This document shows positions 6,582 through 31,065 of a stretch of 31,378 bases of DNA, piece after piece. Below the pieces are notes generated by a model. The model had not been told where the DNA came from, did no database searches, and was given only the letters and a program-made list of their open reading frames with translations. Each line of letters starts with the position of its first letter. Position 1 is the first letter of the stretch. The position numbers and the translations under genes are program-made. The stretch lies in IMG/VR virus record IMGVR_UViG_3300027754_000298, positions 1 to 31,378 of that record; one strand, written 5' to 3'. This stretch comes from a virus.

Positions 6582-7466
6582 ATGGCAACATACACCAATC
6601 TCGACAACGAGATTTTTAGCAACGCAGCGCTGGAAACGTTTCTCAAAACGCTCCTGCCGTTCAACGCATTCAGCACCAACTTCTCACCGGACCCCGTTCA
6701 AAAGGGAGCCACTGTGCTCGTCCCGCTGATTGCATCACTCACCGCCACGACTTTCGGTGGTAGCTACGCGCTCTGCGGTGGCACACAGAGCGTCGTCACG
6801 ATCAGCATCAACAAACACAAGCACGTCCCAATCGGTCAAAACGACCTCGACGCCGCGAACAGCTCCCGCGCCTCGCTGGAGAGTTTTGCAGCGCAACAGG
6901 GCCGCGCGCTCGCACTCGCCGTGCTCCAGGATGTGTTCACGCTCTGCACGACTGCAAACTTCTCGCTGGCCACAGCGGTCGCAAGCACCGCGCTCGATGT
7001 GCCGCAGCTCCGCGCCACGCGCCTCGCGCTTAACCAGAACGATGTGGCCGCAGACCCGCGTTCGCTCATCCTCGACTGCGTCCCGATGGATGCACTGCTC
7101 AGCGTCACAAACTTCGTGCAAGCGCAGATGTTCCGCGACCAGGGTGTGCTCGCCGATGGTAAAGTCGGTCGTGCGCTGGGATTCGGAATGTATGAGCTGA
7201 ACAACCTCTTCCCGAGCACTGGCTCGGTCATGGGTTTCGCCGCTCACGCATCCGCCATCGCCATCGCGATGCGCTACCTAGCACCGCAGGCCGGCAACAC
7301 CTACAGCGATGCCCGCGCAGTCACGGATCCCGGAACCGGAATCACCATCGGTCTCCGCGACCACTTCGATAACAACACAGGGACTCGCTACCTCAACCTC
7401 GAAGCGAACTACGGATACAGCGTCGGTCTCACCACCGCAGCGCGCATCCTCAAGCGCACGGACTAA
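6582..7466 (+). CDS. Major capsid protein (HK97 fold expected)
   Basis: This 294-residue protein follows the protease-scaffold gene, as capsid proteins do. It has a polar N-terminal arm, an Ala-rich helix around residues 98-130 (a spine-helix candidate) and a beta-rich C-terminus. No maturation cleavage site is obvious. The ATG is preceded by an A-rich leader (CAACTAAAACAAA) and no SD; the gene at 10842 has a near-identical leader. Three hairpins follow the stop codon, so a high level of this transcript relative to downstream genes is plausible. Confidence 0.85.
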   Translation: MATYTNLDNEIFSNAALETFLKTLLPFNAFSTNFSPDPVQKGATVLVPLIASLTATTFGGSYALCGGTQSVVTISINKHKHVPIGQNDLDAANSSRASLESFAAQQGRALALAVLQDVFTLCTTANFSLATAVASTALDVPQLRATRLALNQNDVAADPRSLILDCVPMDALLSVTNFVQAQMFRDQGVLADGKVGRALGFGMYELNNLFPSTGSVMGFAAHASAIAIAMRYLAPQAGNTYSDARAVTDPGTGITIGLRDHFDNNTGTRYLNLEANYGYSVGLTTAARILKRTD

Positions 7467-7488
7467 TCGCTAGTCAATTCACGAACAT

Positions 7489-7521
7489 CCCCGCGCGAGG
7501 TTTGGACGCGCGGGGATTTCT
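7489..7521 (+). terminator. Intrinsic terminator-like hairpin after major capsid gene
   Basis: The arms CCCCGCGCG (7489-7497) and CGCGCGGGG (7507-7515) form a perfect 9-bp GC stem with a 9-nt loop, followed by ATTTCTT. It starts 22 nt after the capsid stop codon. The U tract is imperfect, so its strength is uncertain. Confidence 0.6.
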
Positions 7522-7546
7522 TCACCCAAAACTGACCGAAAGGTCA

Positions 7547-7590
7547 CAAGGGCCGTCTCATCCAAACCATGAGCGGCCCTTGTCTTTTTT
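7547..7590 (+). terminator. Strong intrinsic terminator ending 4 nt before a start codon
   Basis: CAAGGGCCG (7547-7555) pairs with CGGCCCTTG (7574-7582). After a single T bulge, CTCAT (7557-7561) pairs with ATGAG (7569-7573). The loop is 7 nt and the run TCTTTTTT follows directly. The next gene begins at 7595, leaving no room for a promoter, so downstream expression would require read-through or antitermination. Confidence 0.75.
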
Positions 7591-7594
7591 ACTT

Positions 7595-9814
7595 ATGAAA
7601 ACCACACCAAAAATCTCCCTCTGCCTCATCGTCGGGAACGTCGAGGAATACATCGACCGCTGCCTCACTTCCTTCGCGCCAATCGCGGATGAAATCTGCG
7701 TCGTCCGAGCCATTGGCAACGCCACCCCTGACCGAACTCTCGACATCGCCCGCGAGAAATTCGGTGCCATTGTCTCGGAATACAAAAACGCAGCCGGTCA
7801 CGAAGACTGGCCGCACGTGGATTCATTCGCTGCTGCCCGCAACGCCTCATTCGCGCTCGCCACCGGGGATTACTGCTTCTGGTGCGATACCGATGACATC
7901 CTCGAAAGCGGTGCGGAACTCATCCGCCAGCACGCAGAGCGCGGAGGATATGCCGCGTATCTTTACCCCTACAAGATACTCGGGAAAGGGGTGAACATCC
8001 TGCGCGAGCGTCTCATCTCTCGCGGAAGCGGAAAATGGATTTACCCCGTGCACGAGTGTTTTGATTTTGCCATCCAGCCCATCCAGAGCGTGCAGGATGA
8101 CCGCGTCATCATCACCCACCTCCCGCACCTCGACAAAAGCGGAAGCAACGAGCGAAACCTCCGCATCCTCAAAAGCATCCCAGAGGAGCAATACACCGCT
8201 GGCCTGCTGTATCATATGCAAGCCGAACTCGCCGCAGCCGGAGACCACGAGGGAAGTATCGCAGCCGCGCAGCGCGCCCTTGCCATGCCCGAACTCGCCA
8301 AGCCCGAGCGATTCGAGCTTTTCCTCAACCTCGCCAACATGACGCAGGATCCATCGCAGAAAGAAACCTGCTATCTGCAAGCCTACGCCACCGACCCTCG
8401 CCGCGCTGAGCCGCTCGCATTTCTCGCGTGCAACTGCATGGACTACGGTCGCAACGAGGACGCGCTCGCCTTCGCCCGCCAGATGCGCGCGACACGCCAG
8501 CCGCAGAAATACGAGTGGAACGAACGCCCCGAAATCTACTCATGGCTCGGTGATGAAATCTACGGTCAAGCCCTGCGCGTGAACGGAAAGAAGAACGTCG
8601 CCGAGATCGTCCGCAAAGAAACCATGCAAAAGGCCGGTGGCCCGCGCATCGCCCTGCTCCACGCCACCCGTGGTCGCCCGCAACAGGCCGCCATAGCCCG
8701 TAAAACGTGGGTCCATCTCGCAGAGCAGCCCGACCGCATCGAGCACATTTTCGTGTGCGATGAGGATGACGCAGCCAGTTTCGCGCTCCAGCGGATGCAC
8801 CACCTCATCATCCCTCCGGGTGGTGGATGCGTCGCAGCATGGAACCACGCCGCATTCAGCACCGAAGCCCCCGTGCTCGTGCAGCTCAGCGATGACTGGT
8901 TGCCCGTGCCGATGTGGGACAAGCTCATCCTCGAACGCCTCGGTGACATCACGAAGCCTGCGGTGCTCGCGATTTCCGATGGCTCGCGCAAGGACGAACT
9001 GCTGTGCATGGCCATCTGCACCCGCGCCTATTTTGAGCAGGATTATTTTTTGTTCCACCCCGCATTCACCGGGGTCTATTCCGATAACTATTTCACCGAA
9101 CTCGCCTACAAACGAGGACAAGTCATCGAAGCCCGCGACATCGTTTTCACACACCAGCACCCCGCGTTCATCAAAGACATCGCCTTCGATGAAACCTACC
9201 AAAAGCAGAACGCGCCCGAGCGCTACGCCTACGGGAGCGCGGTCTATCAGCGACTCAGCCAGGGGAACGACTGGAGCACCGTGCCTGGATTTACAAACTA
9301 CTGGCTGCTCTACCAAAGCATCGCAGCCAACGTGAAGGATGGAGACACCATCGTCGAAGTCGGGGTCTGGATGGGAAGGTCCATCATCTTCCTCGCGCAA
9401 GAACTCCAACGCCTCGGAAAAACCAAGTGCAAGCTCTACGCGGTGGACACATTCGTCGGTGAGAAAAACCAGCCCGCCCACACCGCCACCATCGAGGAGC
9501 ACGGAGGAAGCCTGCGCGATGTCTTCGTGGAAAACATCACCCGCTGCGGAGTCGCTGACATGATCACCATCATCGAAAACGACAGCGCAGAAGCCGCAGC
9601 GTGCTTCGCCCCGAAAAGCGTGGATTTCTGCTTTGTGGATGCCGCGCACGACTACGAAAGCGTGAAGCGCGATGTGGCCGCATGGCTCCCCAAAGTGCGA
9701 GGAACCATCGCAGGCCACGATGCCCAGCACGAGCCGGTGCTGCGCGCCGTGCGCGAACTCATCCCCGGCGCCATCCGCATCGGCCCATGCTGGATTCAAG
9801 GAAACATCCAATGA
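7595..9814 (+). CDS. Multidomain glycosyltransferase-TPR-glycosyltransferase-methyltransferase
   Basis: This 739-residue protein has four apparent modules. Residues 1-190 form a GT-A family 2 glycosyltransferase resembling the WaaE/KdtX group (SLCLIVGNVEEYI at 8-20, DTDD at 98-101). Residues 200-310 look like TPR-type helical repeats. Residues 350-530 form a second GT-A-like domain (CDEDDA at 388-393, LSDDW at 431-435). Residues 570-739 form a class I SAM methyltransferase of the Methyltransf_24 type (VEVGVWMGRS at 587-596, YAVDTF at 615-620, FVDAAHDYESVKRD at 680-693). It would transfer sugars and perhaps methylate them; its position after the capsid gene suggests virion glycosylation, which is inference. 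The ATG at 7595 is the first after the terminator; upstream in-frame codons run through the hairpins. Confidence 0.85.
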   Translation: MKTTPKISLCLIVGNVEEYIDRCLTSFAPIADEICVVRAIGNATPDRTLDIAREKFGAIVSEYKNAAGHEDWPHVDSFAAARNASFALATGDYCFWCDTDDILESGAELIRQHAERGGYAAYLYPYKILGKGVNILRERLISRGSGKWIYPVHECFDFAIQPIQSVQDDRVIITHLPHLDKSGSNERNLRILKSIPEEQYTAGLLYHMQAELAAAGDHEGSIAAAQRALAMPELAKPERFELFLNLANMTQDPSQKETCYLQAYATDPRRAEPLAFLACNCMDYGRNEDALAFARQMRATRQPQKYEWNERPEIYSWLGDEIYGQALRVNGKKNVAEIVRKETMQKAGGPRIALLHATRGRPQQAAIARKTWVHLAEQPDRIEHIFVCDEDDAASFALQRMHHLIIPPGGGCVAAWNHAAFSTEAPVLVQLSDDWLPVPMWDKLILERLGDITKPAVLAISDGSRKDELLCMAICTRAYFEQDYFLFHPAFTGVYSDNYFTELAYKRGQVIEARDIVFTHQHPAFIKDIAFDETYQKQNAPERYAYGSAVYQRLSQGNDWSTVPGFTNYWLLYQSIAANVKDGDTIVEVGVWMGRSIIFLAQELQRLGKTKCKLYAVDTFVGEKNQPAHTATIEEHGGSLRDVFVENITRCGVADMITIIENDSAEAAACFAPKSVDFCFVDAAHDYESVKRDVAAWLPKVRGTIAGHDAQHEPVLRAVRELIPGAIRIGPCWIQGNIQ

Positions 9815-10407
9815 CAACGCCCATCCTCAGTATCCTCACGCCCGCAGTGCCTTCGCGCCTCGACCAGCTCGCCACGCTGTGCGAAGAAATTGACCATCAA
9901 ATCGGGAGTCAGCCGGTCGAGCACCTTGTGCTGCTCGATAACAAAAAGCGCACCGTGGGTGAAAAGCGGGATGCACTTCTGCGCATGGCTCATGGTCAAT
10001 ACGTCGCCTTCGTGGATGATGATGATGACATCTCCCGCGATTACGTCTCGCGTATCCTCGCCGCAGCGGAGAGTCGCCCGGATGTCATAACATTTGACCA
10101 GCACGCCACGGTGAACGATCAAAGCGCCCGCATCAACTTCAAGCTCGGAAACCCCAACGAGCCATTCTACGGAACCGCATCAGCCATCGCATCAACGCCC
10201 ATTATTAAGCGCAATGCGTGGCACATCTGCGCATGGTCGCGTCGTCTCGCCATCATGTCGCATTTTCCCGCGAGCAACTACGGGGAAGACTGGAGTTTCG
10301 CCGCCCCGCTCTGCGCGCTGCCCAATCTCCGCGAAGTCCACATCCCCGAGGTGCTGCACTTTTACAATCACAGCACAGCCACCACCGAAGCCCCGCCACC
10401 GCAATGA
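9811..10407 (+). CDS. Glycosyltransferase family 2 protein
   Basis: This 198-residue GT-A protein starts with ILSILTPAVPSR, the usual first strand. It has VFLD-like sequence YVAFVDDDDDIS with D69-D73 as the metal/nucleotide-sugar site, and an acceptor-side GEDWSF motif near residue 155, as in family 2 enzymes. It overlaps the upstream multidomain enzyme by ATGA and the downstream gene by 4 nt. It probably acts in the same sugar pathway. Its short length implies a catalytic domain only, with no membrane anchor. Confidence 0.85.
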   Translation: MTTPILSILTPAVPSRLDQLATLCEEIDHQIGSQPVEHLVLLDNKKRTVGEKRDALLRMAHGQYVAFVDDDDDISRDYVSRILAAAESRPDVITFDQHATVNDQSARINFKLGNPNEPFYGTASAIASTPIIKRNAWHICAWSRRLAIMSHFPASNYGEDWSFAAPLCALPNLREVHIPEVLHFYNHSTATTEAPPPQ

Positions 10408-10829
10408 CCGCTCAAGAAGAACGCGCACTTTTTAAGGAATGCTGCCTCACGGGAAAAAAGCCGGTCATCGAGCGCCCGTGGCTCATTTCCAATCTCTGCC
10501 GGGGATGCAATCAGCCCGTCACCGCTGCGAATATCGCCATCTGGCACACCTACTGGAAAGCGATGTGGGCCGCGTGCCATGTCGAGTGCCGCACCGAGGG
10601 GATGAAAGCCGAAGCCTACGAGTGCCAGCTCATCGACAAGTCGTGCTCGGATTGCCGTCATTTCGTGCGCGGGAAAGAACTCATAGAGCTGAAAGGATTC
10701 GGAACCGGAACCTTCATCGGTCACTGCGCGCACCACAACCGCACCACCTTCGCACGAGCCTGCCACAGCTACCCGCAAAACGCAGAATGCTTTTCGCATC
10801 GTCGCCAACAAATTACCGAAAACCCATAA
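10404..10829 (+). CDS. Cys-rich, probably zinc-binding protein of the sugar cassette
   Basis: This 141-residue protein has two Cys/His clusters. C32/C35 with C58/H59/C62 could form one zinc ribbon, and C81/C84 with C108/H110/C120/C129 a second. It overlaps the glycosyltransferase stop as ATGA, which fixes the start at 10404. I do not recognise the family. The context suggests a partner of the sugar enzymes or a structural zinc protein of the virion. Confidence 0.65.
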   Translation: MTAQEERALFKECCLTGKKPVIERPWLISNLCRGCNQPVTAANIAIWHTYWKAMWAACHVECRTEGMKAEAYECQLIDKSCSDCRHFVRGKELIELKGFGTGTFIGHCAHHNRTTFARACHSYPQNAECFSHRRQQITENP

Positions 10830-10841
10830 CTAAAAAACAAA

Positions 10842-11045
10842 ATGGAAATACTACAAGAAAGCAAAATCAATCCCACGTTCGTCGGAAAGTGTGATATATG
10901 CGAAACGCAATTTCGCGCCACCCTCGATGACGAAATCCGTTCCATCGTCACCGAAGAGGAGCCAGATTTCGAAGGTTACGCCGTGCGATGCCCGAACCGC
11001 AAATGCCCCTGCACGCTGGTCTATGTGCGAAAGGAGCCAGCGTGA
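10842..11045 (+). CDS. Small zinc-ribbon protein
   Basis: This 67-residue protein has paired knuckles C17-x-x-C20 and C50/C55/C57, a probable single zinc ribbon. An acidic stretch around residues 29-43 separates the knuckles. The leader AACTAAAAAACAAA is very like the one before the major capsid gene and contains no SD. Function unknown; it is part of the cassette between capsid and connector genes. Confidence 0.6.
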   Translation: MEILQESKINPTFVGKCDICETQFRATLDDEIRSIVTEEEPDFEGYAVRCPNRKCPCTLVYVRKEPA

Positions 11046-11248
11046 ACGCGGAAGCTACTGCCATCGCCAAAATCAACGAAGACGCATGGAGCGTAGATGT
11101 AGAGATAAACGAAAGCGCATACCCGCCGGGATCTAATTTTGTGAAAATACGCAGAATGCTCACCCGCCTCATTGCCGCAAAAGCGCCAGAGACAATGGCC
11201 CGCGAAATCCTCCTCGATGCAATCTGGGAAGGATACGAGATAAAATAG
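11042..11248 (+). CDS. Small protein of unknown function, GTG start
   Basis: This 68-residue protein starts at a GTG overlapping the upstream stop as GTGA. The upstream in-frame ATG at 10988 would overlap the zinc-ribbon gene by 58 nt and is less likely. It reads as a mixed alpha/beta fold with no motif I recognise. It is the last gene of the capsid-adjacent cassette; TTTGACA and a large hairpin follow. Confidence 0.55.
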   Translation: MNAEATAIAKINEDAWSVDVEINESAYPPGSNFVKIRRMLTRLIAAKAPETMAREILLDAIWEGYEIK

Positions 11249-11323: not shown

Positions 11324-11366
11324 GTGCGGGGGTGTGAGGTTTTGTGGACTTCCTCAGCCCCCGCAC
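11324..11366 (+). terminator. Large GC-rich hairpin before connector genes
   Basis: GTGCGGGGG (11324-11332) pairs with CCCCCGCAC (11358-11366), and TGAGG (11335-11339) with CCTCA (11352-11356), around a 12-nt loop. No T run follows immediately, so it may be a weak terminator, a processing site or a translational control structure rather than a classical terminator. It marks the 3' boundary of the sugar cassette. Confidence 0.5.
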
Positions 11367-13618: not shown

Positions 13619-13655
13619 TTATTGACGCCAACATTTCTGCACATAGGATGTGTGC

Positions 13656-14204
13656 ATGAAACCGATGCTCGCCCATGTTTATGACTCCACGCAAAGCGTG
13701 GAGGGATGGCTGATTTCGGAAAAGCTCGATGGATGGCGCGCAATCTGGGATGGTGCGCAGCTCGTGTCGCGCCTCGGGAATCGCATCAACGCCCCCGAGT
13801 GGTTCACCCGCCAGCTTCCCGCAGGGGTCGTGCTCGATGGTGAGCTTTTCATGGGTCGCGGAAACTACTGGAAACTCACCAGCGCCCTCAAGAAATCCAC
13901 CCCGCTCGATGCGGAGTGGATGCAAATTCAGTTTTGCGTTTTTGATGCACCGTCGCCCGCTCCTTTCGCGCAGCGCCTCGCCGCTGCCACCGCAGCCGTG
14001 GAAGGATGCGAAGTCGCGCAAATAGTGAAGCACCGCCCGTGCTCCGGTGAATGGGATGCCATGAACGAGCTGGCCCGCGTGGTCGCGCTCGGTGGCGAGG
14101 GTGTGGTCCTCCGCAATCCCGCCTCGCTCTACGTGGAAAAGCGCAGCCACGACTTCCTCAAGCTCAAGCCCTATGACTCGGAAACCGAAAAGCGCGCAGC
14201 GTAA
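13656..14204 (+). CDS. Minimal ATP-dependent DNA ligase, adenylation domain only
   Basis: This 182-residue protein contains the nucleotidyltransferase motifs of ATP-dependent ligases in order. Motif I is EKLDGWR with K23 as the AMP-accepting lysine. SRLGN follows at 38-42, motif III is LDGELF (60-65), IIIa is FCVFDAP (93-99), motif IV is GEGVVLR (147-153), and motif V is FLKLK with K169/K171. It ends 11 residues after motif V, so the OB-fold domain with motif VI present in ordinary ligases is absent. It would seal nicks only weakly or with a partner. The start is the ATG at 13656; ATTGACG lies at 13621-13627 and an ATGTGTGCATGA mini-frame overlaps the start. Confidence 0.85.
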   Translation: MKPMLAHVYDSTQSVEGWLISEKLDGWRAIWDGAQLVSRLGNRINAPEWFTRQLPAGVVLDGELFMGRGNYWKLTSALKKSTPLDAEWMQIQFCVFDAPSPAPFAQRLAAATAAVEGCEVAQIVKHRPCSGEWDAMNELARVVALGGEGVVLRNPASLYVEKRSHDFLKLKPYDSETEKRAA

Positions 14205-24975: not shown

Positions 24976-25060
24976 GAATCCCGATCATCGGTTCAGGACT
25001 GCTCACTCCGCATTCGCGGAAGTTTTGAGGTTCTCGTTTTCGCCCCGGTGGTCGGGATTC
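24976..25060 (+). ncRNA. Structured leader RNA abutting the first early SD
   Basis: Positions 24976-24991 pair with 25045-25060 over 16 contiguous base pairs (14 Watson-Crick and 2 G-U). Inside, TCCGC (25007-25011) and GCGGA (25016-25020) form a small stem with an ATTC loop. The stem ends exactly one base before AGGAGGT, the SD of the first early gene. Such a structure could hide or expose the SD, or act as an RNA stability element. It could also be a binding site or a riboswitch-like leader. I do not recognise a known family. Confidence 0.5.
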
Positions 25061-25067
25061 AGGAGGT
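25061..25067 (+). promoter_or_regulatory. Strong Shine-Dalgarno AGGAGGT
   Basis: It lies 4 nt before the ATG at 25072 and decides that start. The same frame is open from an ATG at 24931, which has no SD and would read through the RNA stem. Confidence 0.7.
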
Positions 25068-25071
25068 AACC

Positions 25072-25176
25072 ATGAAAAAACACACCAACGCGACTCCCTC
25101 GAAAATTAAAAAGACCAACCCAAAGTGGCTTCGCGATTTAAAAACATCCACTTCTTTTATTGGAGGTGCGAAATGA
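25072..25176 (+). CDS. Early small basic peptide, first of ATGA chain
   Basis: This 34-residue peptide is Lys/Thr/Ser-rich and ends in FIGGAK. The last codons GGA-GGT-GCG-AAA are also the SD region of the next gene. The start follows a near-consensus SD. If the frame began at 24931 it would have 81 residues, but the codons there overlap the paired RNA stem, so this is less likely. Function unknown. Confidence 0.55.
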   Translation: MKKHTNATPSKIKKTNPKWLRDLKTSTSFIGGAK

Positions 25177-25180
25177 GCGC
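25162..25180 (+). repeat. Start-cassette repeat, copy 1
   Basis: GGAGGTGCGAAATGAGCGC, containing SD, stop and start, is present again at 25437-25455. It encodes GGAK-stop in one frame and the MSA start of the next gene in another. Confidence 0.85.
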
Positions 25181-25451
25181 CACGATTTGCCAGAAGGATG
25201 AGCAGGTCGCGCTGCTTGGTGAATTGAATGCGCTGCGCGTGTCGGTGCTTTCTGTGATGGAGGAACTGGGAAGCATGTGCTGCAATTTGCGCGATGCTGA
25301 GGAGTGGACTGCCACGAGCAACCCTTCACTCTCGGTGATTGAAAATGCGAAGTGCTCGGTGGAGAGCGTCGCAGCGGGAGCGCAGGAAGCCATGAATGTG
25401 CTTTTAAAGATTTTCCACAAGTGCGAGGAAATCACAGGAGGTGCGAAATGA
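25173..25451 (+). CDS. Early 92-residue helical protein
   Basis: The protein begins MSATICQKDEQ and is mainly amphipathic helix, with C49/C50 and further cysteines. It ends ITGGAK like the first gene because the SD-start cassette repeats. The start overlaps the previous stop as ATGA and is preceded by GGAGGTG. Function not recognised. Confidence 0.65.
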   Translation: MSATICQKDEQVALLGELNALRVSVLSVMEELGSMCCNLRDAEEWTATSNPSLSVIENAKCSVESVAAGAQEAMNVLLKIFHKCEEITGGAK

Positions 25452-25455
25452 GCGC
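25437..25455 (+). repeat. Start-cassette repeat, copy 2
   Basis: It is identical over 19 bp to 25162-25180 and spans the ATG at 25448. Confidence 0.85.
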
Positions 25456-25630
25456 GACTATCGCTTTTGTGATGCTGGGTCTGATGTTTGCCGCGCTGGT
25501 GGCCCTCGCGTTTTTTGCGGGTCGGGATTGCGGATGGAGAAGCGGGTGGCGCGCAGGGGTGCAGGATGAGAAGCTTCGGGATTCGCGGATGCTGGCCCGC
25601 TTTGACCAGCGCAAAGGGGGTGTCCTATGA
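25448..25630 (+). CDS. Early small membrane protein
   Basis: This 60-residue protein starts MSATI like the preceding gene, then has a transmembrane helix (about 5-24, AFVMLGLMFAALVALAFFAG) and a charged cytoplasmic-type tail with many Arg. It is linked by ATGA on both sides. It could be a membrane-anchored inhibitor or superinfection factor, which is inference only. Confidence 0.65.
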   Translation: MSATIAFVMLGLMFAALVALAFFAGRDCGWRSGWRAGVQDEKLRDSRMLARFDQRKGGVL

Positions 25631-25872
25631 GACACAATGGAACTGAGATCCACAACGGCCCAGCGCACCGGATGGCCACGCTCGATATGGATGCGGGTTT
25701 GCCGAGCTGGTATGATCGCGGGGAGGTCTGGAGGAGTGTCGCCGCTGCTTGCAACGCATGGCTCGCGAAGCGCAAGATTCCGATGTCGAGCGGATGGCGC
25801 GCGATAAATCCGGAATCGAAGGAGCAAAAGCTGAACATGGATGCGCTACGGAAAGCGAGGGGTGAGCAATGA
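25627..25872 (+). CDS. Early 81-residue protein of unknown function
   Basis: The protein is mixed and hydrophilic, with WYDRGEVWRSVAAACNAW near residues 28-45 and a Lys-rich C-terminus. It has a G-rich SD (AAAGGGGGTG) and ATGA overlaps on both sides. No family recognised. Confidence 0.6.
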   Translation: MRHNGTEIHNGPAHRMATLDMDAGLPSWYDRGEVWRSVAAACNAWLAKRKIPMSSGWRAINPESKEQKLNMDALRKARGEQ

Positions 25873-26006
25873 GTTTCCTGCGCAAACTGTTTTTGATGCC
25901 GCTCGCCGGGGTGCTTTTGATTGTGATCGCCCCTGCCCTGCTCGCGTCTGTTTTTATCCTGCCGGTGCTGATGCTTTTTACGGAGCGCAAGGAGGGGGAC
26001 CAATGA
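25869..26006 (+). CDS. Early 45-residue hydrophobic membrane peptide
   Basis: The peptide has one long hydrophobic run (about residues 8-37) with a possible kink at AP (21-22), a basic N-terminus (FLRKL) and a charged tail, ERKEGDQ. It overlaps both neighbours by ATGA, which supports a real gene despite its size. It could be a small holin-like or membrane-stress peptide, but its position in the early chain argues against lysis. Confidence 0.6.
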   Translation: MSFLRKLFLMPLAGVLLIVIAPALLASVFILPVLMLFTERKEGDQ

Positions 26007-26233
26007 GAACGGGATATGCCTGGACTCGCACGCCCAAGTGGAAAGCTGCTTTTGCGCGTCGCCGCAAGCTGGTGGTGCCAAAATGGAAGCGTGCGTGGGA
26101 GATGCGCGAGGGTGGAATGAAATACTGGGAGATTGCGTCACGTTTCGGGGTGCGCATTGCCACGGTTTTCAAGTTTGTCGCGAACTACGAAGAGCATCGC
26201 ATCAACACGCAAGCGAAACGGAGGACCGCATGA
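26003..26233 (+). CDS. Early HTH protein
   Basis: This 76-residue protein is very basic. An HTH-like segment at about 32-54 (GGMKYWEIASRFGVRIATVFKF) follows a Trp/Arg-rich arm. Its SD is AAGGAGGGGG. It is probably a DNA-binding regulator of early genes; the target is unknown. Confidence 0.65.
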   Translation: MRTGYAWTRTPKWKAAFARRRKLVVPKWKRAWEMREGGMKYWEIASRFGVRIATVFKFVANYEEHRINTQAKRRTA

Positions 26234-26433
26234 GCGCTTTCCCTGCTGATACTGCGGTCATGGTCGCGGAGATTCACCGCACTGCGCCGTATTCGTTCGA
26301 GGAGTTGGGTGCGCGGTGGTCGTGCTCGGTGGAGCGGGTGGTGCGTCATCGGTTTCTCAAGGTAGGGAGGACCCGCATGGTGCGTCCGGGGACTTTACTG
26401 AAAATTGAGGAAGAGATGGAGGGTGCACGATGA
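26230..26433 (+). CDS. Early small DNA-binding-like protein
   Basis: This 67-residue protein has PYSFEELGARWSCSVERVVRHRF at about 20-42, which resembles the HTH of MerR/excisionase-type proteins, and an RTRMVRPG hairpin after it. It is joined by ATGA to both neighbours. It may be a recombination directionality factor or a repressor, though no integrase is present to partner it. Confidence 0.6.
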   Translation: MSAFPADTAVMVAEIHRTAPYSFEELGARWSCSVERVVRHRFLKVGRTRMVRPGTLLKIEEEMEGAR

Positions 26434-26540
26434 TCTTCCCGCTTCTTATCATTAGCCTTGAGGGGGTTTCGTGGGTGGTTTCTTCATCGGGACAGCGTCC
26501 ACTTGCTGCATTTCTGAAAATGCGAAGGAGGAGGAAATGA
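26430..26540 (+). CDS. Early 36-residue peptide
   Basis: The peptide has a hydrophobic N-terminus (MIFPLLIISL), a polar centre and a very basic end (MRRRRK). It has a GGAGGG-type SD upstream and overlaps both neighbours by exactly 4 nt (ATGA). The arginine run is encoded by the purine-rich SD of the next gene. It is the weakest member of the chain, but the unbroken overlap pattern favours it. Confidence 0.5.
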   Translation: MIFPLLIISLEGVSWVVSSSGQRPLAAFLKMRRRRK

Positions 26541-26755
26541 AGGTGGTCGGAAAGATGTGTGCGAAGGAAGTGCGCGGGGAGGTTCGCTTTTTCGCGCTGT
26601 ATGCGCGAAGGGTGGGTCTGATTTTCCGGTGGACGATGCTGCCAGAGCTTGCCAGCACTTTTGCGGATGAGGGCTATGCGCTCGCCATCGCGAGCCGGAT
26701 GGGTGCCTCGGTTCTCGACCGCGCGGATGAAATCAAGCGGGAGGTGCTGCCATGA
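26537..26755 (+). CDS. Early 72-residue protein of unknown function
   Basis: The protein is compact, with a Lys/Arg-rich first half and an Ala-rich helix (TFADEGYALAIASRMGASVL at about 42-61). It is preceded by GGAGGAGG and joined by ATGA on both sides. It ends EVLP, because its last codons form the SD of the next gene. Confidence 0.6.
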   Translation: MKVVGKMCAKEVRGEVRFFALYARRVGLIFRWTMLPELASTFADEGYALAIASRMGASVLDRADEIKREVLP

Positions 26756-26757
26756 TT
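26740..26757 (+). repeat. Second start-cassette repeat, copy 1
   Basis: GGAGGTGCTGCCATGATT is repeated at 27114-27131. It covers SD and start and encodes VLP-stop in the upstream frame. Confidence 0.8.
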
Positions 26758-27129
26758 AAGCGACCGCTAGACCCGCGTTTCAATAAGTCGGTGCTCGCTG
26801 GTAAAAAGACTACCACGATCCGAAATAAGCCGTGGCCCGTAGGGGTGCCAGTCATGCTCTACAACTGGAGCGGAGCGCCTTACCGCTCGAAGCAAATCAA
26901 CGTCGCCGCAGTGGTCGTGAAAGGTTTCTGGACCATCCGCATCACCCGTGAACGCGATGACTCGATGAGCTACGAGTGCCGGAAGAAAAGCCCGCCCGCA
27001 CTGCATGAGTCGGAGGGTTTCGCCTCGCAGCGTGAAATGGATGAATGGTTTCGCCCTTTGGTAAAAGTCGATGAGACCATCGAAAAAAGTCTGATGCTAT
27101 TTGCAAAAAAAGTGGAGGTGCTGCCATGA
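26752..27129 (+). CDS. ASCH-domain protein
   Basis: This 125-residue protein matches the ASCH (PUA-like) layout. It shows a FNKSVLAGKKTTTIR beginning at residues 10-24, followed by PVGVPVMLYNWSG and a beta-rich core (AAVVVKGFWTIRI). ASCH proteins are predicted RNA-binding or modified-nucleotide recognition modules. The two ends are joined to neighbours by ATGA overlaps. In a phage it could act on mRNA, tRNA or modified nucleotides, which is inference. Confidence 0.75.
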   Translation: MIKRPLDPRFNKSVLAGKKTTTIRNKPWPVGVPVMLYNWSGAPYRSKQINVAAVVVKGFWTIRITRERDDSMSYECRKKSPPALHESEGFASQREMDEWFRPLVKVDETIEKSLMLFAKKVEVLP

Positions 27130-27131
27130 TT
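27114..27131 (+). repeat. Second start-cassette repeat, copy 2
   Basis: It is identical over 18 bp to 26740-26757 and spans the start at 27126. Confidence 0.8.
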
Positions 27132-27371
27132 TCCAAAGCTATCCACCAAGCGTCGTGCGATGGAACCACGACTGCCTCGCTCGGTCGGGAGCGTTGCACT
27201 TCGGGGGAGTCGTTCACCGCGCCTGATGAGAGGATGTCGCGCTTTGAACTGACTGCGTTTTTTGTGCTGAGCCGCCAAGGATGGAAGGCTCGCGGGGGTC
27301 GTATTTTTTGCCCGCGCTGTGCGCAGAATCTCGGGTGCGAGGTTCGCAAAACCACGGAGGGTCACGCATGA
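27126..27371 (+). CDS. Early zinc-ribbon-like protein
   Basis: This 81-residue protein has C62-x-x-C65 and C71 near its C-terminus, with C11 and C24 possibly completing the site. It has a basic C-terminal tail. Joined by ATGA at both ends. Function not recognised. Confidence 0.6.
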   Translation: MISKAIHQASCDGTTTASLGRERCTSGESFTAPDERMSRFELTAFFVLSRQGWKARGGRIFCPRCAQNLGCEVRKTTEGHA

Positions 27372-27913
27372 GCGAGCACGAACATCACGCCACGGAGGAG
27401 ATGGTGGTTGAAAAGCATTTCGATTCATCCACCACGCCGGATATGGCTGAGGAGATTGACAAGCCCGAGGAGATTCTCGCGGAGAAGCTCGGGATCTCGA
27501 AAATGGCCGCGCGCCGGGTGCTGGAATGGCACGCAGGGGAAGTCGCAAATGAGAGCGAGAAAGCGCGACGGCATCAAATCGCAATCATTCTTTCGGAGCT
27601 GGTGCCTTCGCGCCCTGGTAATCTCGAAGCCATCGTGCTCGGTCTGATGTTTGCCTCGGGGACTGCGAATTTCGCGCAGCTCGGGTCGCAATCGGAAGCT
27701 GCGAAGCGGATGGCCCGCTCGGTGAAATGCCCGCACTGCGGGAAGGCTCACGAGCAAACGGTGACGCGCGCGCTCATCAGTCACTACACGCTGAGGTGGG
27801 CCGACAAGCTGCACCTCACGAATTACCGTTTCCGCAGAGCGGAGGAGACGCGGGAGAATTGCAGGAAAGCCCGCATCGCCATCATCGCGCCACCGAAAGT
27901 TTCACACCCCTAG
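27368..27913 (+). CDS. Early protein with HTH-like and CxxC parts, last in the ATGA chain
   Basis: This 181-residue protein has an acidic N-terminus, an HTH-like LGISKMAARRVLEWH segment (about 41-55), an Ala/Gly-rich helix (83-105) and C121-x-x-C124 followed by a basic helix to the end. It may bind DNA or act in replication. Its SD is GGAGGG. A 23-nt gap separates its stop from the next gene, where the chain ends. Confidence 0.6.
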   Translation: MSEHEHHATEEMVVEKHFDSSTTPDMAEEIDKPEEILAEKLGISKMAARRVLEWHAGEVANESEKARRHQIAIILSELVPSRPGNLEAIVLGLMFASGTANFAQLGSQSEAAKRMARSVKCPHCGKAHEQTVTRALISHYTLRWADKLHLTNYRFRRAEETRENCRKARIAIIAPPKVSHP

Positions 27914-27936
27914 AGCGACACAACACAAAAAACCAC

Positions 27937-28542
27937 ATGAGCAAAAAACTTCTCACTGACATCGCTGCGAGTCTTCAAATGTTTGAAGCGCGCAGTCTCA
28001 ATCTCCCGCCTGATATAACGCTGGAGCAATTTTCAGATATTGGCCGTTTTCTGAAACAATGCTCGGATGCGTCTCAGCTTTGGCTTCAAGACTGGAAGGC
28101 CCAAGGGGAGCGCATTCTTGGCTCGGATGCGGTTTCGCTGACTTGTCAGCAGCTCGAACTGGAAATCGGAAGTCTGCCCGCGCTGGTGGCTCCCGAGGAC
28201 CGCATCAAATCGCTTTCGCCTGAGCATCACTTTGTGGCTGCCCGGATGTGTGAGGATGCTTTCGATGCGAAGAATTGGCTGGAGACTGCGGTCGAGGCCA
28301 ACCTCGATGCGCGCCAGCTCGCGCTGAGCATTAAAGCGGGAGAGGTTCGCCGCGCCTCTCCGCAAGCTGCGGGTGCGCGCATGGGTGTCGCGACTCCGCA
28401 CACTGTGCTGCTTGCTTGGCAACATTTCCGCAGTGCTGTGGATCCCGCGAAATACAATGGAGATGATGCTGATGAGGTGCGTGGTGTTTTGATGCCACTC
28501 ACCGCTGAAATTAAAGCGTTCTGCACGCTGCTTAAGGACTAA
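27937..28542 (+). CDS. Protein before primase, replication-associated candidate
   Basis: This 201-residue protein is helical, with SLSPEHHFVAARMCE (about 92-106) followed by WLETAVEANLDARQLALSI. The latter resembles a helical module seen next to replication or partition functions in phages and plasmids. The start has an A-rich leader without SD, unlike the preceding chain. It lies 3 nt before the primase gene. Role tentative. Confidence 0.55.
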   Translation: MSKKLLTDIAASLQMFEARSLNLPPDITLEQFSDIGRFLKQCSDASQLWLQDWKAQGERILGSDAVSLTCQQLELEIGSLPALVAPEDRIKSLSPEHHFVAARMCEDAFDAKNWLETAVEANLDARQLALSIKAGEVRRASPQAAGARMGVATPHTVLLAWQHFRSAVDPAKYNGDDADEVRGVLMPLTAEIKAFCTLLKD

Positions 28543-28545
28543 GCC

Positions 28546-29442
28546 ATGAGCATCGCTGACTGCCGCAGTAAATTACCCATGCCTGCGCTTTGGCGTATGC
28601 TTTGGCCCGGTGTGGAAGGTCCGCACGAGGGGAAGCGTGCGCAGATGGTGGTGGCTGCTTGGAGGGGGGAGAATACGCCCTCGGTCAATGTGACGATGAA
28701 TGGGGATGGATGGCTCTTTTTTGACCACGGTCAAAAGGCCGGTGGTGATGAGTTGAAGCTGGTGGAGCTGGCCCACGGGTGCGAGCGGAAGAAGGCAATG
28801 GAGATTTACCACACGATGGCTGGGGTGGAGTGGAAGACTGCCGCCGCGCCTTCGGGGGATAGGAACCCGAACGCGAATATTGTCGCGTGCTATGATTATC
28901 TCGATGCGGACGGAAAGCTCAAGCATCAGACTGTGCGCTTTGAACCTGGTCTGCGCCCGGGTGAGCGGAAGTCGTTTCTCCAGCGCAGGCCCGCGCAGCC
29001 GGGGATGACTCAAGCGACTCGCTCGGGTCGCAAGGAAGCGAAGAAGGATAACCGCGATGGTCGCTGGTGGCTGTGGACTCTTGAAGGGATTGAGCCGGTG
29101 CTTTTCAATCTGCCAGCCATCATGTCCACATCGGGGGAGATATGGCTCGTGGAGGGTGAGAAGGATGCGCTCGCGCTGGGGAAATTCGGAGTGGTCGTTA
29201 CGACTGCACCGATGGGTGCAAAGAATTGGAGGGAGTCTTACACGAAAGCGCTCGCGGGTCGGGATGTGGTGCTTTGCGGTGACTCGGATTCTGCGGGGGT
29301 CGCGCATCTGCTGACCGTGGGTCGCGCACTGCGCACAGCGGGGTGCTCGGTGAGCACGATGAAGTGGGAAGCGGTGGTCGGGGAAAGCGCGACTACGGAG
29401 AAATGGGATGCTGCAAAATTTTTAGAGCAAAAAGAGAACTGA
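28546..29442 (+). CDS. DNA primase-like protein with TOPRIM domain, zinc ligands replaced
   Basis: This 298-residue protein has an N-terminal CHC2-like segment with AAWRGENTPSVNV at 37-49 and WLFFDHGQKAGGD at 56-68. The order matches primase zinc-binding domains, but the Cys ligands are absent. The TOPRIM core follows with E203 in VEGEKDAL and D246/D248 in CGDSDSAG. It would make primers, or act as a TOPRIM protein supporting the next gene. It ends 45 nt before the helicase. Confidence 0.8.
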   Translation: MSIADCRSKLPMPALWRMLWPGVEGPHEGKRAQMVVAAWRGENTPSVNVTMNGDGWLFFDHGQKAGGDELKLVELAHGCERKKAMEIYHTMAGVEWKTAAAPSGDRNPNANIVACYDYLDADGKLKHQTVRFEPGLRPGERKSFLQRRPAQPGMTQATRSGRKEAKKDNRDGRWWLWTLEGIEPVLFNLPAIMSTSGEIWLVEGEKDALALGKFGVVVTTAPMGAKNWRESYTKALAGRDVVLCGDSDSAGVAHLLTVGRALRTAGCSVSTMKWEAVVGESATTEKWDAAKFLEQKEN

Positions 29443-29444
29443 CC

Positions 29445-29451
29445 TTTGACT
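29445..29451 (+). promoter_or_regulatory. TTTGACT motif before helicase gene, spaced by a hairpin
   Basis: It lies 2 nt after the primase stop and 36 nt before ATG 29488. The hairpin at 29453-29470 lies between; removing its 18 nt leaves 18 nt, within the range at other sites. Confidence 0.4.
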
Positions 29452-29452
29452 G

Positions 29453-29473
29453 CCCGCGCCCCCTCGCGGGTTT
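29453..29473 (+). terminator. Short GC hairpin with T run between primase and helicase
   Basis: CCCGCG (29453-29458) pairs with CGCGGG (29465-29470) around a 6-nt loop, followed by TTT. It could be a weak terminator or a spacer of the translation start. Confidence 0.4.
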
Positions 29474-29487
29474 CCCAACCACAAAAA

Positions 29488-31065
29488 ATGCCCACACCTA
29501 TCGATCAACTCCGCGCAGGAATCGTCCCTTTCGATGAATGGGAGGCTGAGCACATGGAAGCCGCGCCTGCGGTGCAGCCGGTGGTGGTGGATGGGGATTT
29601 CCGCGAGCGGATCAAGATGCCAGGGGATGGTCAGGATCCGCGAGATTTTCTCATTGCGATGGGAAAGCTGGCTGCGCGCAATGGGTTTTACTTTCGCGCT
29701 GGTCAAGCGTGGTTTTATGATGTGAGACAGAAGATGCTCCAGCCGGTGAACTCCACGGGGTTTTGTGGGAGGATTTTGGATTTCTGTATCTTGGAGCAAT
29801 GGGTTGAGAACAAAGGTCGCTACGTTTCCGTGATGACTAGCGGAGAGCTTGCAGGTCGGATTATTGCGTCGCCACAGTTTTTGATGGAATTGCCTGAGAT
29901 TGCGCGGGTGTCTCAGGTGCCTCTGCCGGTGCTGCGAAAAGGGAAGCTGCGCCTGCTTTCCGATGGGTATGATGCGGAGACAAAGACGCTCGTCATCGAG
30001 AAGATGAAGCTGCCCGAGATGTCTGCGGAGGATGCGGTGGCTGGCCTGCGCGCTCGGTGGCTCGGTGAGTTTCCGCTGAAGGACAAGGAGAAGGATTTTG
30101 CGGTGCTGGTTACGGGGATGCTCACGCCTTTTTGTGAGCTGCTGGTGCCCGCGTTCGCTACGCGGCCCGCGTTCGTTTTCACATGCAATCGCGAGGGTGG
30201 TGGGAAGACGTTGGCTGCGCGTTTGTGTCTTTGTCCGGTGCATGGGAAGGTGGAAATCACGCCGCCTCCAGAGCGGAAGAATGATGCGGAGTTGAAGAAG
30301 CTACTGGGGTCGGTGGCTGCTGCGGGGAAATCTTACATTTTGTTTGATAACTGGAAGGGGGATGTGGAGTCGGGTGCGCTGGAGGGGTTCATCACCTCGA
30401 ATGTTTGGAGCGATCGCACGCTGGGGAAGTCCGAGCTTTTCACTGCGGAGAAGTCGTGTCTGGTGTATGTCACCGGGAACTCTGCGAAGGTGTCGCCGGA
30501 TATGCGTCGTCGGTCGCTGTTCGTGCATCTTTTCGTGGAGGAGGTTAGGACCGAGAGCAGACACATCACTCGGAGGATTGATGAGGAGGACATTTTGACC
30601 GACCGCGCGGAGCTGCTGGGGTATCTTTGGAGCATGGTGAAGCATTGGCACGCGAAGGGGATGCCCAAGGCGAGCGTGGACCACGGTAGTTTTGGTAAGT
30701 GGGGTCATGTGGTGGGAGCCATCGTGGAGGCCGCCACGGGGTCGTGCCCGCTCGTGCAAGCTGCAGATGATGGGGATGACGTGCTCAGCGCGTTTGAGCG
30801 ACTGCTGTCGCGATTGATGGAGGACGTGAAGGAACAGAGCGTGGAATTTAAACCGTCCGAGCTGCTTGAGGAAGCGCGCATCCTTGGTGGATTCGAGAAG
30901 ATAGAAGAGGACAAACCAGAGGACGACAGCGCGAAGATGAGAGAGAGGTCGTGGTTCTCCGCTATTTGCAAACGATTCGTGGGGAGTAGGTTTGCGCAGT
31001 TTCGTTTCGACATGAGCAGTGGGTCGCGTGCGTCACGCCGCTACATCATCACGCGGGTCGCGTGA
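29488..31065 (+). CDS. P-loop replicative helicase/ATPase (SF3/AAA+-like)
   Basis: This 525-residue protein has a Walker A NREGGGKT (234-241), Walker B YILFDNW with D287, a sensor-1 VTGN (328-331) and an arginine-rich segment MRRRS (339-343) that could supply an arginine finger. That order fits SF3/D5-type or virE-like phage helicases. The N-terminal 200 residues may be a DNA-binding or primase-associated part. ATG 29488 with leader CCACAAAAA is chosen; TTG 29446 overlaps the motif and hairpin and is unlikely. It is the last gene before the iteron region. Confidence 0.8.
   Translation: MPTPIDQLRAGIVPFDEWEAEHMEAAPAVQPVVVDGDFRERIKMPGDGQDPRDFLIAMGKLAARNGFYFRAGQAWFYDVRQKMLQPVNSTGFCGRILDFCILEQWVENKGRYVSVMTSGELAGRIIASPQFLMELPEIARVSQVPLPVLRKGKLRLLSDGYDAETKTLVIEKMKLPEMSAEDAVAGLRARWLGEFPLKDKEKDFAVLVTGMLTPFCELLVPAFATRPAFVFTCNREGGGKTLAARLCLCPVHGKVEITPPPERKNDAELKKLLGSVAAAGKSYILFDNWKGDVESGALEGFITSNVWSDRTLGKSELFTAEKSCLVYVTGNSAKVSPDMRRRSLFVHLFVEEVRTESRHITRRIDEEDILTDRAELLGYLWSMVKHWHAKGMPKASVDHGSFGKWGHVVGAIVEAATGSCPLVQAADDGDDVLSAFERLLSRLMEDVKEQSVEFKPSELLEEARILGGFEKIEEDKPEDDSAKMRERSWFSAICKRFVGSRFAQFRFDMSSGSRASRRYIITRVA

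Follow-up and report, generated by a model that had tools for sequence, protein, structure and literature searches.

A predicted virion-glycosylation enzyme encoded beside the capsid gene in a group of uncultured phages

Virion glycosylation has been shown in few phages, and the enzymes of mycobacteriophages are the best-known case. In Corndog-type phages, an O-methyltransferase and three transferases are encoded between portal and protease, and modification of the capsid has been suspected since 2015 (PMC4351075). Glycosylation of both capsid and tail tube is reported for mycobacteriophages, and Che8 is reported to modify its own virion in this way (PMC12363180); according to PMC12619734, the modification lies at the C-termini. 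Two enzymes that glycosylate flagellin contain a TPR domain besides their glycosyltransferase (GT). In GmaR, whose GT is N-terminal, recognition of the protein substrate has been proposed for this domain (PMC9638930); the GT of FlmG is of a different fold (PMC7591256). Here we analysed a 31,378-base stretch of DNA from an uncultured phage (the window), which is the whole IMG/VR virus record IMGVR_UViG_3300027754_000298. It encodes, directly after the major capsid gene, a 739-residue enzyme that joins two GT domains, a helical repeat and a sugar-O-methyltransferase-like domain. What is new here is the strict linkage of this enzyme to the capsid gene, which holds in 81 of 81 loci.

The loci were collected from viral contigs scanned both with capsid alignments and with the enzyme, and from cellular genomes scanned once with the enzyme. 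They comprise 206 loci with a capsid gene, 96 after dereplication, of which 81 extend at least 300 nucleotides (nt) downstream. In each of these 81, the capsid gene is followed on its own strand by the first transferase, with a median of 138 nt between them. Most loci came from the capsid queries; the genome contigs L093–L097 came from the enzyme query, which adds a small bias towards presence. The linkage spans two clades that are about 40% identical in capsid, and the conserved core is the capsid gene together with the GT–helical–GT enzyme. The elements of the window that bear on this linkage are as follows.

6582–7466, plus strand: major capsid protein gene, 294 amino acids (aa), phrog_283 at E 7e-22; proposed acceptor
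7487–7517, plus strand: hairpin directly after the capsid gene, inverted repeat with an 11-bp perfect stem, fold z -2.8
7546–7590, plus strand: second hairpin with a T run, intrinsic-terminator-like, immediately 5' of the enzyme gene; inverted repeat 7546–7555/7574–7583, CTTTTTT after the stem, fold z -5.1
7595–9814, plus strand: 739-aa enzyme with family 2 GT (GT2) plus helical repeat, GT-A and sugar-O-methyltransferase-like domain, as assigned by Pfam, PHROGs, AlphaFold2, VIA-align and motif conservation
9811–10407, plus strand: separate second GT2 protein, 198 aa, its start overlapping the enzyme gene; PF00535 at 31.3 bits (cut-off 23.3), phrog_14775 at E 4.6e-27

Upstream of the enzyme gene, the genes run in the order terminase, portal, head-maturation protease and major capsid protein. 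A preliminary description of this DNA had placed a major capsid gene before the enzyme gene, and for the gene at 6582–7466 this assignment is borne out by its phrog_283 match and by its family profile, which matches phage capsid proteins of solved structure with E values as low as 3.9e-9. Moreover, all 27 tested members of the family match phrog_283 and phrog_267. In the window and many relatives there is no gene between capsid and enzyme, with the gap as short as 76–186 nt, and the enzyme is kept in all of them; some relatives carry one or a few small genes in this gap. Three of the inserted open reading frames (ORFs) have, by eye, a GIY-YIG homing endonuclease-like N-terminal part (L038 2641–3417, L045 1806–2720 and L074 517–819), that of L074 being shortened and joined to the next small ORF. 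The same description had placed hairpins on both sides of a five-gene cassette. On the upstream side two strong ones are indeed present, and 69 of the 81 loci have a T-tract hairpin after the capsid stop, whereas the claimed downstream one (11324–11366) shows no folding advantage over shuffles (z -0.87).

Sequence profiles and the predicted structure agree on the modules of the 739-residue chain. Pfam finds Glycos_transf_2 (PF00535) at residues 8–119 with 37.6 bits (gathering cut-off 23.3), Methyltransf_24 (PF13578) with 66.8 bits (cut-off 26.3) and TylF (PF05711) with 23.8 bits (cut-off 23), and PHROGs adds a second transferase at residues 351–541. The best sequence match of the first module in the PDB is GmaR (E 1.3e-5). 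An AlphaFold2 model built from 19 relatives has a mean predicted local distance difference test score (pLDDT) of 89.8 and a predicted template modelling score (pTM) of 0.84. Comparison of this model by VIA-align showed that residues 1–288 resemble SunS and ThuS over 267–275 residues (Z 22–24, root-mean-square deviation (rmsd) 2.5–3.0). Residues 349–558 form a GT-A domain that superimposes on WrtF over 183 residues (Z 18.8, rmsd 2.7) and also resembles RmlT and TarP, all three polysaccharide or teichoic-acid transferases. Residues from about 557 to 739 match the sugar O-methyltransferases MeT1 (Z 19.1), MycF (18.4) and SpnH (17.9). Between the transferases, the model contains helical pairs at about 184–346. 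The scaffold there had been described as TPR; the helical repeat is present in the model, but Pfam TPR models give no match at E <= 1, and the region is best called a TPR-like helical repeat.

The putative catalytic residues are strongly conserved. The DxD-type acidic motif of the first transferase (Asp98, Asp100 and Asp101) is unchanged across both clades, in 71 of 71 relatives, and Asp433 of the second transferase shows no variation wherever aligned. All aligned family members with a methyltransferase domain retain its S-adenosylmethionine (SAM) motif and Asp682/Asp709. Neither transferase has a membrane segment, the maximum 19-residue hydropathy being 1.26 for the large chain and 0.95 for the second GT2 protein. 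The structure prediction and profile searches thus gave three modules with known-fold matches and conserved catalytic motifs, in keeping with the modules first read from the sequence. Two entries related to the methyltransferase domain carry another name. A gene of Synechococcus phage S-P4 (L219 4878–5507), annotated as 'DNA methyltransferase', is 31.8% identical to it, and phrog_2675, likewise named for DNA methyltransferase, also matches it; this name may be wrong in both cases.

Given these modules, the locus was compared with the described systems. It resembles Corndog and Firecracker in having several transferases and an O-methyltransferase among head genes, and Che8 gp108 in the fusion of a GT2 to a methyltransferase. 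Firecracker gp33 and Che8 gp108 also share the Methyltransf_24/TylF families with the methyltransferase of the window. However, the mycobacteriophage clusters (Corndog/Firecracker and Che8 gp108–110) consist of separate proteins apart from Che8 gp108, whereas the enzyme of the window is one chain. Such a chain had been viewed as unusual; for its GT2–methyltransferase fusion, Che8 gp108 is a precedent. In addition, the genes for gp108–110 occupy the extreme right of the Che8 genome, no SunS-like helical-repeat unit was recognised in the mycobacteriophage clusters in these comparisons, and profile comparison of the Firecracker gp34–36 transferases with the modules of the window chain revealed no homology. 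Because the methyltransferase families are shared but the transferases are not recognisably related, we regard the system, which would work like those of Corndog and Che8 with unrelated transferases, as a variant of phage virion glycosylation by analogy rather than as a proven member.

Outside these clusters, SunS and ThuS are glycocin S-glycosyltransferases that modify a ribosomal peptide. They share the GT2 plus helical-repeat fold of residues 1–288 at about 18% identity; the window chain differs in its fused second transferase and methyltransferase, and no glycocin peptide gene was recognised. Given the shared fold, the module may function in a comparable way, though it falls outside the SunS family by its profile score. 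GmaR, the O-linked N-acetylglucosamine (O-GlcNAc) transferase of Listeria flagellin, has a GT followed by a repeat domain like the first module, but it also has an antirepressor domain and its substrate is flagellin, whereas the window enzyme continues with a second GT and the methyltransferase. MeT1, MycF, SpnH and TylF-type enzymes share the fold, the SAM-binding motif and the conserved acidic residues of the methyltransferase domain; in contrast to this fused domain, they stand alone and act on small molecules or saccharides.

The two clades differ in what accompanies the core. Where 3.6 kb or more of downstream sequence is available, the methyltransferase occurs in 33 and the second GT2 in 32 of the 34 loci of clade A, to which the window belongs, whereas in clade B (n = 28, sorted by enzyme score) the methyltransferase was called in one and the second GT2 in two. 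These two parts are therefore additions almost confined to the clade of the window. L005, the sole clade A locus without the methyltransferase, carries a further GT2 gene immediately behind its enzyme. At least one clade B member, L141 (6314–8625), has a truncated second transferase domain, after which comes a 327-aa ORF of its own that by eye resembles a family 1-type glycosyltransferase; this looks like a modular exchange of the extending enzyme. Partial matches to the second transferase also occur in L140, L142, L144, L145 and L185.

Capsid and enzyme have diverged to a similar extent. Within clade A, the mean identity is 0.64 for the capsid and 0.61 for the enzyme, against 0.27–0.36 for portal, protease and TerL, and the capsid–enzyme distances correlate with a Mantel r of 0.62–0.90 by clade or subset and 0.96 over all loci. 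Capsid homologues at most 36% identical to the enzyme-linked ones, from metagenome-assembled genomes (MAGs) associated with Verrucomicrobiota, have no such enzyme adjoining, although one of these contigs, L215, is short. The pairing thus characterises this capsid lineage in particular rather than head genes at large. Thr56, Thr57, Ser95, Thr124, Ser215 and others are Ser/Thr positions conserved among the capsids linked to the enzyme, and five homologues without it do not conserve them; they are candidate acceptor sites only, five distant controls being too few to part phylogeny from function. A natural comparison for acceptor sites is offered by L212 8192–9058, on an 81-kb contig (G002) of a Verrucomicrobiota MAG, whose capsid is 34% identical to that of the window and has no glycosylation enzyme beside it. 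Among 50,697 GenBank phages, the capsid protein gave no tblastn match, and the enzyme gave partial matches in seven records only, covering at best 24% of its length. Of the five MAG contigs with the locus, one belongs to an Armatimonadota MAG and four to Verrucomicrobiota MAGs, two of the four being Chthoniobacteraceae contigs of a single MAG; as binned phage contigs, they are weak evidence of the host.

Based on these results, we consider it likely that the 739-residue enzyme serves a cytoplasmic, phage-dedicated glycosylation of the virion, most likely of the capsid protein, with a methylated sugar. As to acceptor, order of steps, sugars and effect, we infer the following model. The SunS-like GT2 with its helical-repeat module would dock on the capsid protein, or on a capsid-bound partner, and place the first sugar on a side chain. 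Further sugars would be added by the second GT-A domain and by the separate GT2 of the next gene, which is likely a chain-extending transferase, and the methyltransferase domain would O-methylate a sugar. The terminator between the two genes probably allows the capsid to be made in large excess over the enzyme, and the modification may shield the particle or alter its surface. The proposal of capsid or tail glycosylation with methylated sugars thus remains the best explanation, indirectly supported by the linkage, the SunS/ThuS-like fold and the lack of membrane segments, with the correction that the methyltransferase and second GT2, being almost limited to one clade, are additions to the core. 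More tentatively, and at somewhat less than even odds in our judgement, the chain might be a glycan assembly line that serves a single structural protein and works without a carrier lipid, with SunS/GmaR-like priming of the capsid followed by extension and methylation, as the obligate partner of an HK97-type capsid lineage that infects Verrucomicrobiota or other uncultured bacteria.

Several points weigh against capsid glycosylation. Adjacency to the capsid gene alone can also come from placement in a late operon, and the likeness of the first module to SunS is a structural one seen in the model, the SunS equivalog model TIGR04195 scoring 21.4 bits against a curated cut-off of 350. Portal distances also correlate with capsid distances, with a Mantel r of 0.80 in clade A (0.87 for the enzyme) and 0.83 in clade B, and part of the capsid–enzyme signal is therefore co-inheritance. 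Finally, the acceptor could be another virion protein, for instance that of the tail tube or one of the decoration or head-fibre type, with the adjacency reflecting the late operon. We consider this unlikely, although several relatives encode small Ser/Thr-rich proteins between capsid and enzyme, and the tail tube is reported to be glycosylated besides the capsid in mycobacteriophages (PMC12363180, PMC12619734). Those gap proteins (L004 9606–9884, L024 6363–6737, L051 4193–4606 and L118 6899–7285) fall into several kinds that look unrelated, resembling by eye decoration or head-fibre proteins, and are possible alternative acceptors. Nevertheless, the enzyme is kept where the gap holds no gene, and its fixed neighbour is the capsid gene and no tail gene.

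Capsid glycosylation also accounts better for the locus than a role at the host envelope, in which the enzymes would remodel a surface glycan of the host, the O-antigen or a different one, and thereby prevent superinfection or shift the serotype. Phage glycosyltransferases that act on host surface sugars are known from the Salmonella gtr operons (PMC3688519), and the relatives of the second GT-A domain would suit such a role. However, a gtr cassette has a membrane-embedded transferase and a flippase, and neither transferase here has a membrane segment; the first module resembles peptide or protein transferases, and strict linkage to one capsid family across two clades is unexpected for an accessory conversion gene. 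We thus judge this reading quite improbable. Glycosylation of phage DNA bases against restriction is the least credible, even though DNA-glycosylating phage transferases exist (discussed in PMC12619734) and the closest PHROG of the methyltransferase is named 'DNA methyltransferase', for the methyltransferase fold is that of sugar and small-molecule O-methyltransferases, the first module resembles a peptide transferase, and the window genes scanned include no recognisable base-hydroxymethylase or other hypermodification gene.

The enzyme gene and the second GT2 gene are followed by three small ones:

10404–10829, plus strand: Cys-rich protein, 141 aa, 12 Cys; no family match
10842–11045, plus strand: zinc-ribbon-like 67-aa protein with 5 Cys and CxxC motifs; weak MJ0042-type zinc-finger match below the cut-off (14.1 vs 20.9 bits)
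11042–11248, plus strand: 68-aa protein with a GTG start; no family match

All five plus-strand ORFs of the proposed cassette exist as described. The 141-aa protein is probably metal-binding, and it has no relative in the scan of viral contigs. When the presence of the cassette as a unit was checked, the last three genes had a relative at none of 92 related loci. A five-gene unit is rejected because conservation is lacking for both Cys-rich genes and for the small gene after them, and these three probably lie outside the system. The genes thereafter, which had been called connector genes, match no family, and that label is conjectural. Elsewhere in the window, an ATP-dependent DNA ligase-like gene (13650–14204, phrog_114, E 5.9e-31) lies among the tail genes, directly ahead of the tape-measure part. 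The guanine–cytosine (GC) skew switches sign at about 25 kb and is positive from there to the end (25000–31000), where the primase- and polymerase-like genes are still on the plus strand.

In summary, this study describes a large uncultured phage group in which all members that could be tested encode a predicted glycosylation enzyme next to the capsid gene. Because the sequences come from environmental metagenomes and not from phages facing animal antibodies, the group allows the reasons for capsid glycosylation by phages to be tested independently. It also offers a compact predicted protein-glycosylating enzyme with methylation built in, as a candidate for reconstitution in E. coli.

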